DNA of 33,602 bases, from positions 55,124 through 88,725 of the forward strand of contig JAMYWO010000158.1 in assembly GCA_024220525.1 (NCBI GenBank), written 5' to 3'. The notes below the pieces were generated by a model. That model did not search any database and was not told where the DNA came from. It worked only from the letters and a program-made list of their open reading frames with translations. The DNA comes from Cochliopodium minus (taxonomy: Eukaryota; Discosea; Himatismenida; Cochliopodiidae). Both the position numbers and the translations under genes were made by a program. Position 1 is the stretch's first letter. Each line of letters begins with the position of its first letter. Positions 1,607 to 31,921 of the stretch are shown here, one piece after another.

Positions 1607-2744
1607 TTATTTAATTTCTTTCAAACTTTTTGAATCAACAAATCTGAATTTTATTTTCTCAAGAAAATCTTTTTCCATTCTAATTGGAGGTAAAATGTGA
1701 GCTTTTATTTCAGGAGTAGAACATCCAAAAAAGCCATACAACTTCTTGTCTTCATAAAGAGGAACGTCTTCAAATGAAATTTGGTATTCTATCTCTTCGC
1801 TGTTTGGTAAAAAAAACTGACTTTTGCACTTCCTTTAAATAAAAAAAAAATAAAAAAAGAAAATAATTAAAAGGAAAATAAAAATTAATAAAAAATATAA
1901 AGTTATAGTGTTAAAAAAGAAAAAAAGAAAAGAAAGAACTTTTTGAATAACTTCCATTGTGAACAAAGACAAGTAACTTGCATCCACTTTTCAAAGTCTT
2001 CAAATTTATATATTTTACTCCTCTCCCATTGTTACACAAGTAAACAATTTCATCCGCGAAATAATATCCGTGCCTAAATGTATCTGTGCCAAACCCATAT
2101 CTCGAGTCTAGTATTGCTTTGTCCGAAGAAACTCCTATTGGGAAATATGGTGAACCTTTTTTTTCATTTGTTTGATAAAAAAGATGGAAGGGGTACAAAT
2201 AGTTTTCTCTCAGATGATGTTTGGTGATACAACAATTCCAAACCCCAACTTTTTTTAAAAACAAATAATGAATTATTTTCTGACTTGTTTTTCAACTTTT
2301 TTAATTTTTTTAATTTTGAATTTTCTATTTATTATTATATTATATTTTATATTTATATTTTTATTATTTTATAAAGATTTTAAATATTTAGATACCTTCT
2401 TTCTCATTTGAAGTCAGTATCTTTTCATCATTTGGATCAAGATCGAAACAGGGCAACAATCTTTCTTTATTCCATCCTATCATCAATCCATCCAAACAAA
2501 ATCTTTTCCATGAAGTAAATTGATCTGTTAATTTGTTTACACAGAAATTATTTTGGGTGAATAAATTCCAAAATCTTTCATTTTCTTTCAAGATAAAGAA
2601 GAATGATTTGCATACCCTTGATATTTCAAATAAATCTTCAAATTGAAGAAAGGAGAAGATAATGATCCAACATTGTTTTTTAAAATTATCTATCTCTTCC
2701 ATTCCATCCTTTTTGATTGGCATTAATTTCTTTTGAAAATTCAT
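1607..2744 (-). pseudogene. F-box/SPRY-like gene with a frameshifted last exon
   Basis: Exons: 2744-2396, 2248-1940 and one beginning at 1832. The N-terminal F-box (about residues 20-60, WIIIFSFLQFEDLFEISRVC) would bind Skp1 in an SCF ubiquitin ligase. The rest resembles a divergent SPRY/B30.2 fold (IGVSSDKAILDSRYGFGTDT; LLVFVHNGS; FEDVPLYEDKKLYGFFG). In phase, exon 3 reads RSAKVSFFYQTAKR and stops at 1789, giving 233 aa. The same exon in the paralogue at 29748-29963 has seven extra bases between short CCAA repeats, and these keep the frame open for about 60 more residues, to the TAA at 1607-1609 here. This copy has therefore lost 7 bases by slippage and is truncated, unless this is an assembly error or a different splice is used. 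The coding sequence after the break still looks intact, so the loss is recent. Confidence 0.7.
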
Positions 2745-2922: not shown

Positions 2923-4560
2923 TTAATTTAATTTTAAATATAAACCTTTGTATTGTTGAAAAAAATATTGATAAAGAAATAAAGAATGATTCAAATCTTT
3001 GATCTGAGTGACACAACCATCATAAACTAAAGCAACACGAAAATAATCCAAGACAGCTTCGAAAAAAAGAAGTAAAACATCTATCACTGAGGTATCCTCC
3101 ACTTTTCCAAGATTTTTCTTAACGAAAGAAATGCACCATAGTGAAATACCGAGGAGGCTTTTGTTGGGAATTATTTTCATTGTGGAAAATTGTCTGAAAA
3201 GCATGTTGTAGGTGAAGACAAATGGTTGAGGGAAACAGTTTAACTCAAATAATTTTTTCCACATCAATCTTGATCAAAAAAATTTTCAATATGAAATATT
3301 TAAACAAAAAAAAAATTTAAAAAACTAACAAGGTTAAAAAAAAAATACTAAATAAATAAATTTAAAAATAAAATAAAAGTTTCAAATAAAGTCACACTGC
3401 ATTATTTAGAAAAACTGAAATTCAAAATAAAAAATAAATAATAAAAAAAATAAATATAATAAATAAAAAAAAATCATTTTAAAAAATAAAAATAAAAAAT
3501 AAATGATGAATTTGAACCTTTTGATCTCAAATTGTTGTTCAAAAGGAACAAATTTAAGTTTTATTTCTTCTTTGGATTTGAAAACTCCTTTTTTCGGAAG
3601 AAGATTCTGAGATCGTTTTTGGGGTTTTATTTTTGGGTTTGGAGGTTTTTTGTTTGGCTTGTACAAATCAGAAGCAATGCTACAAATCAGTTTTTTAACA
3701 CCTGGAGGTAATTTCACTCCAGATCTATCCAAGACCCAAACCTATTTATATATAAAATTAAAATAAAAAATAAAAAAATATAAAATGAAAAAATAATAAA
3801 TAAAAAATAAAATAAAAAAAAAATAAAAAACAATAATAATAAAAAAATATAAAATATGAATAAAAAAATATTCACAAAAAATTTTAAATTTTTTCACCAC
3901 TTTTATTGCTATTTTATTTTTAATTTCCAATTTTTGATAGTAAATTTTGTATTCTTCAAAATGCTTAGTAAGATTTCTCTCAAAAGGAGATTTGATAGAA
4001 GAAAAGCCATAAGAAAGCCTCAAAAGCATGACAATCCCAAAAATGTACTGTTTGCCCATGTCTTTAAAAATCTCCGCTTTGTTTTTCATTTCGATTATTT
4101 TATCTTCGTTTTCGTGTTTTCTTCTTATTTCGTTGATAACTTTTTTCTTGTTTTCCATCTCCTTTTCCGTTTCAATCATTTTGCTTTTTCCATTTTTGAT
4201 CCTTACATTCACATTTATTATCTTTTCTTTAATGTATTCACAAATCAAATCATATTTCCTTCCATTGGATCTATATTCAAAAAAGAATATGATTATATTA
4301 ATTTCTATTTATTCAAAAAAAAAGAAAAAAAAAAAAAATTTAATGGATCATAAAGTTTATATTGACTTTCATAAAGAATGATCATACCCCACTTTATCAT
4401 TTTTGTTGTAATTCTTGTCATATAAATTCTCCCAATATTTCGCTTTGTGATAAAGATTCTTTCTAAAAATTCTATTGCAAGAAGATAAAGAAACAAATCC
4501 CTTTATATCAAGATGATCCACGATTATATCCAAAATTCCATTATTATTAAAAATCTCCAT
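2923..4560 (-). CDS. F-box-like coiled-coil protein (371 aa)
   Basis: Four exons: 4560-4388, 4270-3898, 3741-3518 and 3268-2923. All junctions keep phase and the total is 372 codons including the stop. Residues 1-45 look like a divergent F-box (ILDIIVDHLDIKGFVSLSSC, then W-E-N-L). Residues 60-180 are a Lys/Glu-rich predicted coiled coil (ETEKEMENKKKVINEIRRKH). The C-terminal half has a basic Pro/Lys segment (PNKKPPNPKIKPQKRSQ) and a hydrophobic helical region that I do not recognise. The donor of exon 2 is uncertain by one codon, because GTGGTG offers two in-frame sites. It lies directly upstream of the F-box tandem pair on the same strand, so it may belong to the same expanded family. A role as a substrate adaptor is inference. 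Confidence 0.72.
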
Positions 4561-4750: not shown

Positions 4751-6179
4751 TTAGCCTCTGGCAGTCTCAGAACCACCAACGAGTTCAGAAAGTTCCTTGT
4801 TAATAGCAGCCTGTCTTCTGGAATTGTACTCAATGGTCAAAGCGTTGACAATATCTTTAGCATTGTTGGAAGCAGTCTCCATAGAAGTCATTCTAGCACC
4901 AATTTCAGAACAAGCATTCTCGACACAAGCATGGAAAACACTGGTAGCAACGAAAAACTCGGAAAGATGTTGTCTGGTCTCAGATGAAGGCTCTTCAAAC
5001 TCATAATCATCAAGATCTCTCTCCAAGATCTCCTTTTTGGAAGGGATGTAGTCGATGGTAGGTCTGCTGGTCAAGACGTTGACAAAGTAATTGTAGAAGA
5101 TGAAGATCTTCTTTCTCTCTGTTTGCAAGAGTCTGTCTGCAATCAAGGATGCTTCGAAAAAGCTGAGTGGATCTTTGGTGAGATCTCTGGTGAGGAACCA
5201 CATGTCGTATTGTCTTTCTCCGAATACGTTGAATCCCTTTGCTCCCAAGGATACGATCTTGGTATTTTTGGTCAATTTGGTCTTGATAGGTCTGATCAAT
5301 ACGGTATTCAATGAACCACAGAGACCTATTCAAAAATAAAAAAGTAAGATTTTGTAATAAAAGAAATATATCAAAAGAAAGAATATTTGTATTATACTAA
5401 CTTAATATAATTATAAGAGCATATATGGATAATAAACTGAATATAAATTAATAAAAGTTCAAATACTTGTTTTTTTATTGGTATAATATCATGACAGTTT
5501 AAAAAATCAACTATATATTTTCACTTTTAAAAAATTTTTGATAGTTTTACCTTTATCAGAGGTACATACAACCCAAAGAGAATCATTTCCTTCTTCAGGC
5601 AAAATGGAGTTTTCCAATCTTGGTTGTTTACCCTTTTCAGGAATTTCATATGGTTTATCTGATTTAAAGATGACACTTTGAGCAATTCCTTGATAAAATG
5701 GTCTTGCACTTTCAGTGTAATTTTGGTTTTGTTTCAATTTTGCAGCTGCAACTTGTTTCATTGATGTTGTGATTTTGGAGATTTGACGAATGGATGAAAT
5801 TCTTCCTTTCACTAAATAGAAAATCAAAAATATTTGTTAAAAGCAAATTTATATATTTATTTGTCAAAAATTCTAAATCAATCTTGGTTTATGTGTTTTT
5901 AAAAAATAAATTTTTTTTAATTTATATGAATATCTTACATTCTTTCAAAGTAGCCATTGATCTTGTATCAAATTTTCTAAATATAAAAATATTTGCATTA
6001 ATATATGTGTGATAAATTTTTATATTTTTATTTTTTGAAGGTAATATAAATATTATTTATTCAAAAAATATATTAAAAAAAATTTTATTTTACTGTGTAT
6101 CCCATTTCATAAAAGCAAAGGATTTCTTGCTAATTTTCAAATTTTTGAAACCTTTATTGAGATTAAAGTTCTTAATCAT
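4751..6179 (-). CDS. ATP5F1C: Mitochondrial F1 ATP synthase gamma subunit
   Basis: Four exons: 6179-6094, 5976-5939, 5811-5551 and 5325-4751, together exactly 320 codons (319 aa). The first exon encodes a basic, Asp/Glu-poor leader (MIKNFNLNKGFKNLKISKKS) typical of a mitochondrial presequence. The mature part begins near RSMATLKELKGRISSIRQIS, the conserved N-terminal helix, followed by KITTSMKQVAAAKL and the hallmark CTSDKGLCGSLNTVL, which spans the exon 3/4 junction. The C-terminal helix has the family signature MTSMETASNNAKD. Gamma is the rotating central stalk that couples proton flow to the catalytic sites. The gene is divergent from the MAPKKK gene across about 400 bases. No defect is seen. 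Confidence 0.95.
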
Positions 6180-20714: not shown

Positions 20715-21196
20715 AAATTATTTTTTTATAATAAAAGAAATTATTAAAATAAAATTATTTATTAATTTTAAATTTTTATTTAAATCTTGAATTAATTATT
20801 ATTTAATTTTATTTATTTTAATTTTTTTTTTGTTTTTTGTTTTAATTAGATTATTTCTCTTTATTATTTCATTTTTCATTTTTTTTTTGTAATTTTTTAT
20901 TTTTCTTATTTTTGAAAAATTATTTTTATTATTTATTCTTGAATTAATCATTTTTTTTAAATTTTTTTTTTATTTAGATTATTAATTCTAAATTATTTTA
21001 AAATGTAAAAATTTTTCATTTTTCATTTTTTATTTTTTAATTTTAATCTTTAAATTTTTTATTATTTTTTATAATCTTTTTCATTTTTATTTTTTTTGTT
21101 TTTTTTTATTAATTTTATATTTTATGTTTTATGTTTTATGTTTTATTTTTATTATTTTATTANAAAATAAAAAATAAAAAATAAAAAATAAAAAAT

Positions 21197-21338: not shown

Positions 21339-23013
21339 GTGTCTTTTCCAGCTAACAAAAAATTCACAACAACGTCTCTCAAATATTGCCTCGTGAAAAG
21401 TTCTCCATTTTCGTCAGTTGTCTTCCAAAAATAAAAAAAAAATTTAAAAAAATTCCAAAACAAAAAAAATAAAAATAAGATAAAAAAAAAATAAATAAAA
21501 ATAAAAATAAATGAAAACAAAATAATTTAATTTTTTTTTTACATTTAAATATAGTTCCAAAATGTCTTCTTTGTTATTTCCATTTTCTCTTGTTTTGATT
21601 CTTTCGTCAATCACTTTGTAGACAAAGTCATCTACTATTTGCATGTTTCTTTTGAATTTCTTCTCCAAGTCGAAGATGTAGAAGAAGTTTCTGAAAGGGT
21701 TCTTCAAGTTAGCCAAAGGGAAACCTTTTTTAAAAAATAAATGAAATATTTAGACTAATTAAAATTATTTTTTAAAATAAAATAAGAATAAGAATAAGAA
21801 TAAAAAAAAATTTCAAATCAAGAAATATAAAAAAAATTGTTTCAAAATAATTTGATCATTGGGAATTTAGAAAAAAAATATTTTTCCAATCAAGAAATGA
21901 AAATCTTTTAATTCACTATCCAAATTGAAAAATAAAAATAAAAAATAAAAATGAATAAATAAAATAATTTAAAAAAAAAAATTTAAACAAATAAAATTAA
22001 AATGTTTGATGGATAAAAAAAATAAAAAAAAATCCACTAAAATTCTTTTTTACTTAAACAATCATCAAAAGCTTTCTGAATTATATTTTCAGATTTAATC
22101 GAATTCAAATCATATCCAAAACCAATCTCTACGAAAGTGTCCATGGTAAAAGAGTTGAAAAGTTTCTGTACGTCTACTTCTTTCGAAAGATTATCATACA
22201 AAACCTCCTCCAAGTCTTTGTTGTGTTTTTTGTATGTCTGCTCAAATTCTCTCATGTTTTTCCTTTTAAACAAATTTGAAGCTGTTTTTCTTTGTTTGTA
22301 CCTTTTAAAAATAATAAAAATGTCAAAAATAATTTTTTCAAAAAAACAATGTAAAAATTTTTTAAAACATTTAAATAAATGTTAAATGATTTTTTTACCA
22401 GTTGTCATAATTTGCAATGAATATTCCATTTCCCAATATTTTGGAAAGAGTATCTATTGACAAGTTTCCTTTTACATAATTGTCAAAATTGGTTTTCAAA
22501 ATGTGATCCACAATTTTGTCTTTTAATTTAAAAAAAAAAAATAAAAAAAATTTGTTCAAAAAATTAAAAATTTTTTTTTTACTATCACATGTAGTTATGT
22601 TGTTTGGATCTCCTATTGGACCTTTAAAGAAATATGTTTTTCCATATTTATGGAAATTTTTCATCATCACTTTTCTATTTATTTTATTTTTAGCTGAATT
22701 ATAATTATTTAATTTTTTATTTTTATTTACTGGTAGAAATCATCAGAGTTGATTACAAAATCAAAGAGATTATAGAAGAATGGCAATCCTTTAGGACCAT
22801 CAATTGGCCTATTCTTTATATAATAACAAAAAAAAAAAAAAGTTAAAATTTAAATAAATTGATGTTGTAAAGATACCATGATTGTATATATCCATTCAGC
22901 AACTAATTTTAAATAAAAAAAATTGAAGAAATTATATATTTTTAAAAATAAAACTAACCAATTAATAAAATAATTGCAATGAATGCTAGTAAATAGAAAG
23001 ATAAAGAGAACAT
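21339..23013 (-). CDS. Cytochrome P450, 5' eight exons
   Basis: Exons: 23013-22959, 22902-22877, 22813-22731, 22674-22583, 22519-22399, 22301-22054, 21724-21543 and 21421-21339, giving 296 codons plus two bases. The N-terminus is a membrane anchor (MFSLSFYLLAFIAIILLI). It is followed by the Pro-rich hinge RPIDGPKGLPFF, the C-helix NWYKQRKTASNLF with the Trp and Arg that contact haem propionates, and the I-helix VVVNFLLAGKDT. It stops in phase 2 inside the AGxDTT oxygen-binding motif. The remaining exons (ExxR, PERW, haem Cys) are absent here but are found, in the required phase, at 30861-31921. The protein should be an ER-bound monooxygenase. Its substrate is unknown. Confidence 0.92.
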
Positions 23014-30860: not shown

Positions 30861-31921
30861 CTATTTGACAAGTTTTTCCGGTATTAGCCACATTCCGTCT
30901 TTTGTGGATAAAGTAATACCCAAGACAGGAACAGGCTCAGAAGATCTCTGAGTGACCTCGAAAGAAAACTTGGTGATGATGTTTGCTATGGTGTAGGAAA
31001 GTTCTTCTATTGCCAGCTGCATTCCTAAGCAGATGCGTGGTCCACATTGAAAGGGAATGTATGGTGGTGACACTGATTTGTCTGATTGAACTCCTATCTT
31101 TCCGTTTCCTCCTTCCAACCATCTTTCTATTATGATAAAAATTATTTAGAAAAAATATATATAAAAATCAAAAAAAGATGAAATTTAAAATAAAAAAAAA
31201 AAAGATAAAATTTTTAAAATAAAAATAATAAAATATTTACCTGGCTATTTTTTAGATAAATTTTAGTTGGTTAAAAAAATTTAATAAAAAATTTTTTTAC
31301 TTGAAACTCGAGTGGAGATTCCCAGTAATCAGAATGTCTTTAAAAATTATGAAAAAATAACTAAAAAATTAAATTAAATTAAAATTAAATTGTTACCTTC
31401 CAAGAGCCCAAGCACACCAAGATATAGAAGTTCTAAATTTTTTCAATTATTATGTAAGTAAATATATTATAAAAATTTTAAAATTTTACCCGGCTTTAAT
31501 TTTGATGCCACCGGGCAATACATCATCTTTGAGACAAAGTTTCTCGTCACTAATGAAAAAAAATTTAAAAAAATTCCAAAAAAATTTTAAAAGAAAGATC
31601 TTACACTGGGACTGTGTTTTTTTTGGAACAAATTAAAATAAAAATAAAAATTAAAAAATTAAGTGAAAATTTTTAAAAAAAATAAAATAAAATAAAATAA
31701 AATAAAATAAAATAAAATAAAATAATTTAAAATGTTTACCAGGAGGACTTAATCTTAAAGTCTCGTTGATAACAGCTTTCAAATAAGGAATGTCAGTGAG
31801 AGATTTTAAGTTAAAGTCTTTTCCGTCATTGGTTTTCTTCATTACTTCCTCTCTCAATTTCTTTTCTATTTTTTTGTTTTTGCTCAAATAATAGAAGCAC
31901 CATGTAAGTGTCTGTCCTGTT
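30861..31921 (-). CDS. Cytochrome P450, 3' seven exons
   Basis: Exons: 31921-31740, 31611-31605, 31549-31490, 31432-31397, 31337-31301, 31244-31241 and 31126-30861. The first starts with a single base completing a codon: TTGQTLTWCFYYL, the second half of the I-helix. Then come ExxR (INETLRLSPP), PVPVDEKL, DDVLPGGIKI, PERW and the haem loop PFQCGPRICLG with its Cys ligand, ending at TAG. The phase fits the P450 5' part at 21339-23013. Together they make 494 codons, the normal P450 length, with Glu350/Arg353 and Cys438. Two exons are only 7 and 4 bases long. The DNA directly upstream belongs to a different gene (capping enzyme). Confidence 0.92.
31241..31244 (-). other. 4-base micro-exon in the P450
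   Basis: On the minus strand an acceptor AAAAAATAG, then CCAG, then a donor GTAAATAT. CCA plus G|AA AGA TGG gives the P450 motif PERW. Direct joining of the neighbouring exons gives AAA GAT GGT and soon a stop. The flanking introns are 56 and 114 bases. Confidence 0.85.
31605..31611 (-). other. 7-base micro-exon in the P450
   Basis: An acceptor ACACAG, then TCCCAGT, then a donor GTAAGATC. It turns …LSPP|DEKL… into SPPVPVDEKL, the conserved P450 PPVPV segment. The flanking introns are 128 and 55 bases. Omitting it breaks the frame. Confidence 0.88.

Follow-up and report, generated by a model that had tools for sequence, protein, structure and literature searches.

A predicted four-nucleotide coding exon in the PERW motif of a P450 gene from an AT-rich eukaryote

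Introduction

Exons of a single nucleotide have been published in Arabidopsis, plant VPS55 genes and Fusarium P450s, and so do not support one point in a preliminary description of the present locus, that 4 nt is close to the smallest exon size known. In Arabidopsis, the 1-nt APC11 exon was tested by cDNA and reporter assays (relevant passages of PMC4674806), and the 1-nt exons of plant VPS55 carry conserved strong donors of the form GTRAGT (excerpts of PMC8831610). In the CYP621A P450s of Fusarium, a 1-nt exon is backed by RNA reads (Nelson and Syed 2026, PMC12940212). A passage of the same paper cites exons of 2-5 bp in Arabidopsis, Drosophila and humans, and a study of Creolimax applied a method that targeted microexons of 3-15 nt (in the part cited here, PMC4739763). 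A search of the open-access literature with a few terms returned no report of exons shorter than 5 nt in a free-living protist.

A coding microexon is taken here as an internal exon of at most 15 nt between spliceosomal introns. Such an exon, CCAG, is predicted in a P450 gene within the window, a stretch of 33,602 nt (24.5% G+C) that covers positions 55124-88725 at the end of contig C158, in an assembly of 44.65 Mb and 598 contigs. Like the Fusarium CYP621A exon, it is an ultra-small internal P450 exon between the EXXR and haem motifs, is needed both for the frame and for a 24-residue spacing (PKG to PERF in Fusarium, PMC12940212), and comes to light through orthologs and an uninterrupted relative. 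CCAG is nevertheless not an exon of the CYP621A type. The Fusarium exon is a single nucleotide of the glycine codon in PKG, known from 20-24 fungal genes and with RNA reads, whereas the exon described here places 4 nt in PERW itself, is accompanied by a 7-nt exon, belongs to an AT-rich eukaryote and is predicted from sequence.

With APC11 the locus shares a constitutive ultra-small exon between GT-AG introns, for which intron definition and stepwise removal were proposed; the APC11 exon is smaller and was tested experimentally, while that of the window is predicted (relevant passages of PMC4674806). Plant microexons of at most 15 nt are likewise conserved, coding and mostly unannotated, and occur in gene families with copies both with and without the flanking introns. 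They number 2,398 cases established by RNA-seq in 10 plants (all in excerpts of PMC8831610), in contrast to the handful of predicted cases here. The present prediction would extend frame-essential ultra-small exons from plants, animals and a few fungi to an AT-rich eukaryote, with two microexons in one P450 gene, both retained in a paralog that has diverged from it. Exons this small tend to escape gene finders and standard aligners, which would report a broken gene; gene counts for genomes of this kind may therefore be inaccurate.

Frame and motif at the CCAG exon

The C-terminal half of the P450 gene is divided into seven exons (Table 1), separated in order by introns of 128, 55, 57, 59, 56 and 114 nt. 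Once spliced, it encodes 196 residues open up to the stop codon, and its match to Pfam p450 (PF00067) reaches 169.3 bits, where the cut-off is 22.8. The read contains the superfamily signatures ETLR (EXXR), PERW and FQCGPRICLG (FxxGxRxCxG).

Table 1. Predicted features of the P450 gene, its surroundings and related loci (window positions unless a locus is given)
Feature	Position	Strand	Remarks
Capping-enzyme fragment	33330-32086	-	directly before the P450 C-half (31921-30861)
P450 C-half exon 1, 182 nt	31740..31921	-	I helix (TGQTLTW) to K helix (ETLRLSPP)
7-nt exon TCCCAGT (V-P-V), predicted	31605..31611	-	enumeration, paralog TTCCTGT, shuffles
P450 exon, 60 nt	31490..31549	-	length equal in paralog L031
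P450 exon, 36 nt	31397..31432	-	length equal in paralog L031
P450 exon, 37 nt	31301..31337	-	last codons TTT CAA (F-Q); length equal in L031
56-nt intron, GTAAAA...AAATAG	31245..31300	-	sequence; 5' of CCAG exon
4-nt exon CCAG, predicted	31241..31244	-	Pro codon and first base of the PERW Glu
114-nt intron, GTAAAT...CATAATAG	31127..31240	-	sequence; 3' of CCAG exon
Last P450 exon	30861..31126	-	haem motif FQCGPRICLG and stop codon
P450 N-half, predicted exons, gene start not fixed	21339..22813	-	ends LAGKDT; phase fits 31921
4-nt exon CCTG of the paralog	L031:5826-5829		borders AAG/CCTG/GTAAGT; introns 70 and 70 nt
9-nt, 3-nt and 10-nt exons, predicted	L048 (C51) 2343-2351, 2405-2407, 3253-3262	-	spliced alignment
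2-nt exon TT, candidate	L035 (C44) 1828-1829	-	restores seven-residue GIF-to-W spacing

On the minus strand, ...AAAAAATAG stands before CCAG (31244-31241) and GTAAATAT after it, which gives the predicted borders TAG/CCAG/GTAAAT. The preliminary description had set the exon between AG and GT signals of introns of 56 and 114 nt, and these coordinates are confirmed. When CCAG is kept, the predicted junction of the 37-nt, 4-nt and last exons is TTTCAA-CCAG-AAAGATGG and the product reads ...SPLEFQPERWLEGG..., with FQPERW. When it is left out, the neighbouring exons are out of frame, as had been claimed, and the read continues ...LEFQ KDGWKEETER to a stop ten codons on, after residue 117; the Pfam score of this frameshifted product falls to 107.5 bits. 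A recursive (ratchet) site with a zero-length exon was considered and rejected: at the 31301 donor it would amount to leaving CCAG out altogether, which disrupts the frame.

The distance from the KAG motif to PERW is exactly 24 residues once CCAG is included. The same spacing is found in P0001, L035, P0005, P0007 and P0017. It is 25 residues in P0012 and P0104, and three other sequences fall outside the pattern used. A 24-residue spacing from a PKG-like motif to PERF has been described as nearly invariant (PMC12940212).

Seventeen relatives, 12 taken from the matches to paralog L035 and 5 from those to the window C-half, align without a gap across the site. PER stands there in 16 of them and PNR in one, followed by W in 13 and by F in 4. 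In a wider set of 240 relatives (the best 120 of 1,734 matches with the L035 query and the best 120 of 298 with the window C-half, many of them close kin), PER precedes F, W or Y in 237 and a close variant of this motif is present in all 240. The earlier statement that PERW is universal in P450s was thus nearly right: PER is close to constant and the fourth residue varies.

The enumeration covered every splicing of the site that removes at most two GT-AG introns, each 20 nt or longer. Of the 33 splicings, three leave an open in-frame product, and among these only the one that uses CCAG gives PERW. The only other open in-frame product would make CCAG intronic, with a single intron running from a donor at 31307 (CTCGA/GTTTC) to an acceptor before 31122 (AAAG/ATGG) and yielding a P450 that lacks FQPER. 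This arrangement is highly improbable. It would delete the PER stretch that all 17 aligned relatives possess (one as PNR), its product scores 142.4 bits, 27 bits lower, and it needs a GTTTCA donor although 83% of the 72 reference donors have A after GT. It has, moreover, no counterpart among the two open splicings of the paralog described below.

Dinucleotide shuffling of the intron interiors, with exons and the outer six bases held fixed and in-frame exons of 1-12 nt scored, recreated the motif at the 4-nt site in 1 of 5,000 shuffles for the window and in none of 5,000 for the paralog. Any open in-frame microexon, the motif disregarded, appeared in 58 of 5,000 and 98 of 5,000, respectively. 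By each of the tests that were run, CCAG is a predicted frame-essential coding microexon, and it would work like one: AG precedes it and GT follows it with plausible introns on both sides, the open frame and the conserved motif require it (the one other open product drops FQPER), and it is kept as coding sequence of equal length in a homolog, where CCTG is a synonymous change.

A second exon of this kind, 7 nt long, lies upstream in the same gene; the preliminary description had passed over it (31611-31605). Its predicted junction reads CCTCCTG-TCCCAGT-TGACGAG, and skipping it leads to a stop as well. Among 34 one- or two-intron splicings at this site, 6 are open and in frame and a single one gives SPPVPVDEK. 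The corresponding intron of the paralog is longer; 28 of its 100 splicings are open, and again a single one yields the motif, as SPPVPVDDK. The motif arose in 4 of 5,000 shuffles for the window and in 0 of 5,000 for the paralog, and an open in-frame microexon in 652 and 340 of 5,000. As shuffles are so often open here, it is the motif, not openness alone, that carries weight at the 7-nt site.

A diverged paralog with the same layout

A purpose-written spliced alignment that sets no limit on exon length was used to survey other P450 loci of this genome (both strands of L031-L050). One of them, L031 on contig C36, has exons of 182, 7, 60, 36, 37 and 4 nt followed by a last exon, so that the first six of seven lengths match those of the window. 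Its 4-nt exon is CCTG and differs from CCAG by a synonymous change; its 7-nt exon, TTCCTGT, stands at the equivalent place to TCCCAGT. Enumeration at the CCTG site gave 28 splicings, of which 2 are open and in frame and 1 gives PERW; the alternative uses an open 8-nt exon and yields PGKW. The claim that a spliced 4-nt exon restores the frame and PERW is backed by this paralog with its matching layout.

The two proteins share 153 of 195 residues (78%). At fourfold codons, 37 of 60 differ and 23 of 60 (38%) are identical. The introns measure 52/247/71/79/70/70 nt in L031 and 128/55/57/59/56/114 nt in the window; introns 1, 3, 4 and 5 are no more similar than shuffles and can no longer be aligned, and introns 2 and 6 stand about 2-3 sd over shuffles. 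Synonymous sites and most introns have thus diverged while both microexons retained their length, frame and splice signals. The 4-nt exons of the window and of L031 share a common ancestry, a single origin kept twice and not two origins.

In the distant paralog L035, on contig C44, the region from RLAPPVP through beyond PERW lies in one 359-nt exon, and no intron pair around PERW was seen in the other surveyed P450 loci that align through the motif. From this we infer that the common ancestor of the window gene and L031 probably gained two introns, separated by four bases, and so acquired the 4-nt exon, although the other loci may instead have lost introns.

As to family, P450s are named by a rule that sets family membership above about 40% identity over full length. 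CYP704 is the nearest named family among the matches listed, and the named CYP704C1-like matches share about 31-36% with paralog L035 (the query being L035, not the window protein), which is below that level, and the gene is not assigned to CYP704. When L035 and the window C-half served as protein queries, identity did not exceed 48% in the best 120 matches to either, and no transcript of the window P450 appears in the best 120 of 1,734 (L035) or the best 120 of 298 (C-half). The collection searched does include an HSP90 that is 99% identical, from a EukProt Trinity transcriptome; RNA of this species or of a sister species has thus been sequenced. Lower in the HSP90 list, the named matches carry the labels Balamuthia (70%), Entamoeba (69%) and Vigna (67%, probably a contaminant), which hints weakly at an amoeba.

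Splice donors and a possible order of removal

Exon and donor statistics were drawn from 12 better-aligned P450 loci; the window and the weakly aligned L033, L034, L042, L043, L045, L046, L047 and L050 were left out. The 84 predicted introns of these loci have a median length of 66 nt. Introns of about 66 nt fall in the size range where splice sites usually pair across the intron.

Donors were scored by their matches to CAG/GTAAGT at 9 positions. The 72 reference donors average 5.35, with 1 reaching 8 and 11 reaching at least 7. Those of both 4-nt exons, in the window and in L031, match at 8 of 9 positions, which puts the CCAG donor at the 99th percentile of the reference set. In another locus with very small exons, L048, the donors score 7/9 (3-nt exon), 8/9 (10-nt exon) and 5/9 (9-nt exon), and those of the two 7-nt exons score 5/9 and 4/9; strong donors are thus not general to microexons. 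The string AGCCNGGT occurs three times in 333,204 strand-bases (the window and the 20 P450 loci L031-L050), at both 4-nt exons and at the end of the window's 60-nt exon.

It had been suggested that such an exon would be hard to define in A/T-rich introns. This objection presumes exon definition; the introns here are short (median 66 nt), as suits intron definition, and the donor is at the 99th percentile. The spliceosome would be expected to pair sites across short introns, in which case exon size would matter little. U1 and the U2AF/U2 factors would be unable to occupy both ends of a 4-nt exon simultaneously. Since the exon could not hold U1 and the 3'-splice-site factors together, stepwise removal is the natural reading: one intron would leave first, and the remainder would then be an ordinary junction. 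The downstream intron of CCAG itself could be the first to go, as its strong donor suggests; U1 pairs with three exonic positions, which 4 nt would accommodate. This proposed order resembles that of the 9-nt exon of potato invertase, whose second intron is lost first (as cited in a passage of PMC4674806).

An exon of 4 nt, not a multiple of three, whose omission brings an early stop could also be real yet optional, with skipping leading to a premature stop and lower expression as a regulated on/off switch. This is unlikely, as the strong donors in both paralogs would favour efficient inclusion. Frame logic, canonical signals, the 24-residue spacing, the unique GT-AG fit and a paralog layout with a synonymous change instead argue that CCAG is very probably an exon of 4 nt that the P450 gene uses constitutively, with sequential removal of both flanking introns as the predicted route of joining.

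Other very small exons in the P450 family

By alignment, 6 of 72 internal exons in the 12 better-aligned loci measure at most 10 nt, a 2-nt candidate included. Three are predicted in L048. The 9-nt and 3-nt exons rebuild DFLGDGIF, and the 10-nt exon, by alignment alone, rebuilds the I-helix sequence MIAG/RDT. Phanerochaete CYP5141A1 offers a parallel in its 8-nt exon in the I-helix motif, although it is another gene and belongs to a fungus (a passage of PMC12940212). For the 9-nt and 3-nt region of L048, 6 of 32 three-intron splicings are open, two of which yield DFLGDGIF, one of them through a 41-nt exon instead of the 9-nt exon; the frame also stays open in 7 of 76 splicings with two introns and in 1 of 29 with one intron, and the 3-nt exon keeps the frame whether used or skipped. 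A stop interrupts the L048 alignment just before the haem motif, and no canonical donor is apparent nearby, so this gene may be damaged.

In L035, a seven-residue spacing from GIF to W results from just one of 38 splicings, the one with the 2-nt exon TT; this spacing is present in 118 of 119 pattern-fitting relatives among the matches listed. It is treated as a candidate because 85 of 5,000 shuffles do equally well.

In L031, a further candidate exon of 10 nt, GCAAAGACAC, can be read by eye at 4818-4827 behind a GC-AG intron. This intron bears AGGCAAA at both ends, as expected of an intron gain with target duplication, and L035 has no intron at the matching place. The spliced alignment picked a 21-nt exon in this region, not the 10-nt candidate.

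A lineage rich in exons of 2-10 nt is plausible from these predictions, which lie within one gene family. A broader proposal draws on sizes of 2, 3, 4, 7, 9 and 10 nt in that family and is offered tentatively, at somewhat less than even confidence: ultra-small exons would be routine in this AT-rich lineage, with pure intron definition and stepwise removal leaving no practical lower limit of length, exons of 2-10 nt in the most conserved motifs and unusually strong donors at those of 3 and 4 nt. A lineage with several such exons would provide a natural test of whether short-intron pairing abolishes a minimum exon size, and could also serve to test which intron leaves first.

Assembly around the two P450 halves

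The fragment of an mRNA-capping enzyme that stands directly before the P450 C-half is recognized through its upstream exon (31.8 bits, above cut-off); its last exon scores 19.5 bits, below cut-off. Some 9 kb beyond the C-half, in the direction of transcription, sits the N-half of a P450, which appears to be the missing 5' portion of this gene, put out of place during assembly. The paralog is split alike: an SMC-hinge gene runs into the P450 C-half on C36 (L031 3000-6160), and a P450 N-half on contig C27 (L068 330-1880), whose alignment contains a single stop, located at the edge of an exon, extends to roughly the point at which the C36 piece starts and is followed by an N run. Misjoining within TTTTTATTTTT introns would likely account for both splits. 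A fusion of capping enzyme and P450 genes was considered for the window; misassembly is preferred. The evidence for the microexons lies wholly within the C-halves and is independent of the misjoin question.

Two further explanations take this disorder as their starting point. The C-half follows a capping-enzyme fragment with no P450 5' half directly upstream, as it might if it were a decaying pseudogene fragment and the microexon a relic. A relic is very unlikely: all seven exons are open in both paralogs, residue identity far exceeds that at fourfold codons (78% against 38%), the window contains a phase-matching 5' half, and for the paralog a fitting 5' half is present on a different contig, ahead of an N run. 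The probable chimaeric joins at low-complexity introns could likewise point to a sequencing or assembly error, in which PERW would truly lie in one exon and the apparent introns would be misassembled. Such an error is extremely improbable given two separate loci with equal exon lengths, different intron sequences and a synonymous difference.

An Rfam scan of the whole window returned no match. A single N at 21163 follows the P450 N-half at a switch from T-rich to A-rich sequence. Together with those at 1359 and 29964, it is one of three single Ns in the window, each at or near a switch between A-runs and T-runs and possibly marking an assembly join. Beyond the N-half, the C-terminal part of a TPR-repeat gene occupies positions 20706-19700 of the minus strand.
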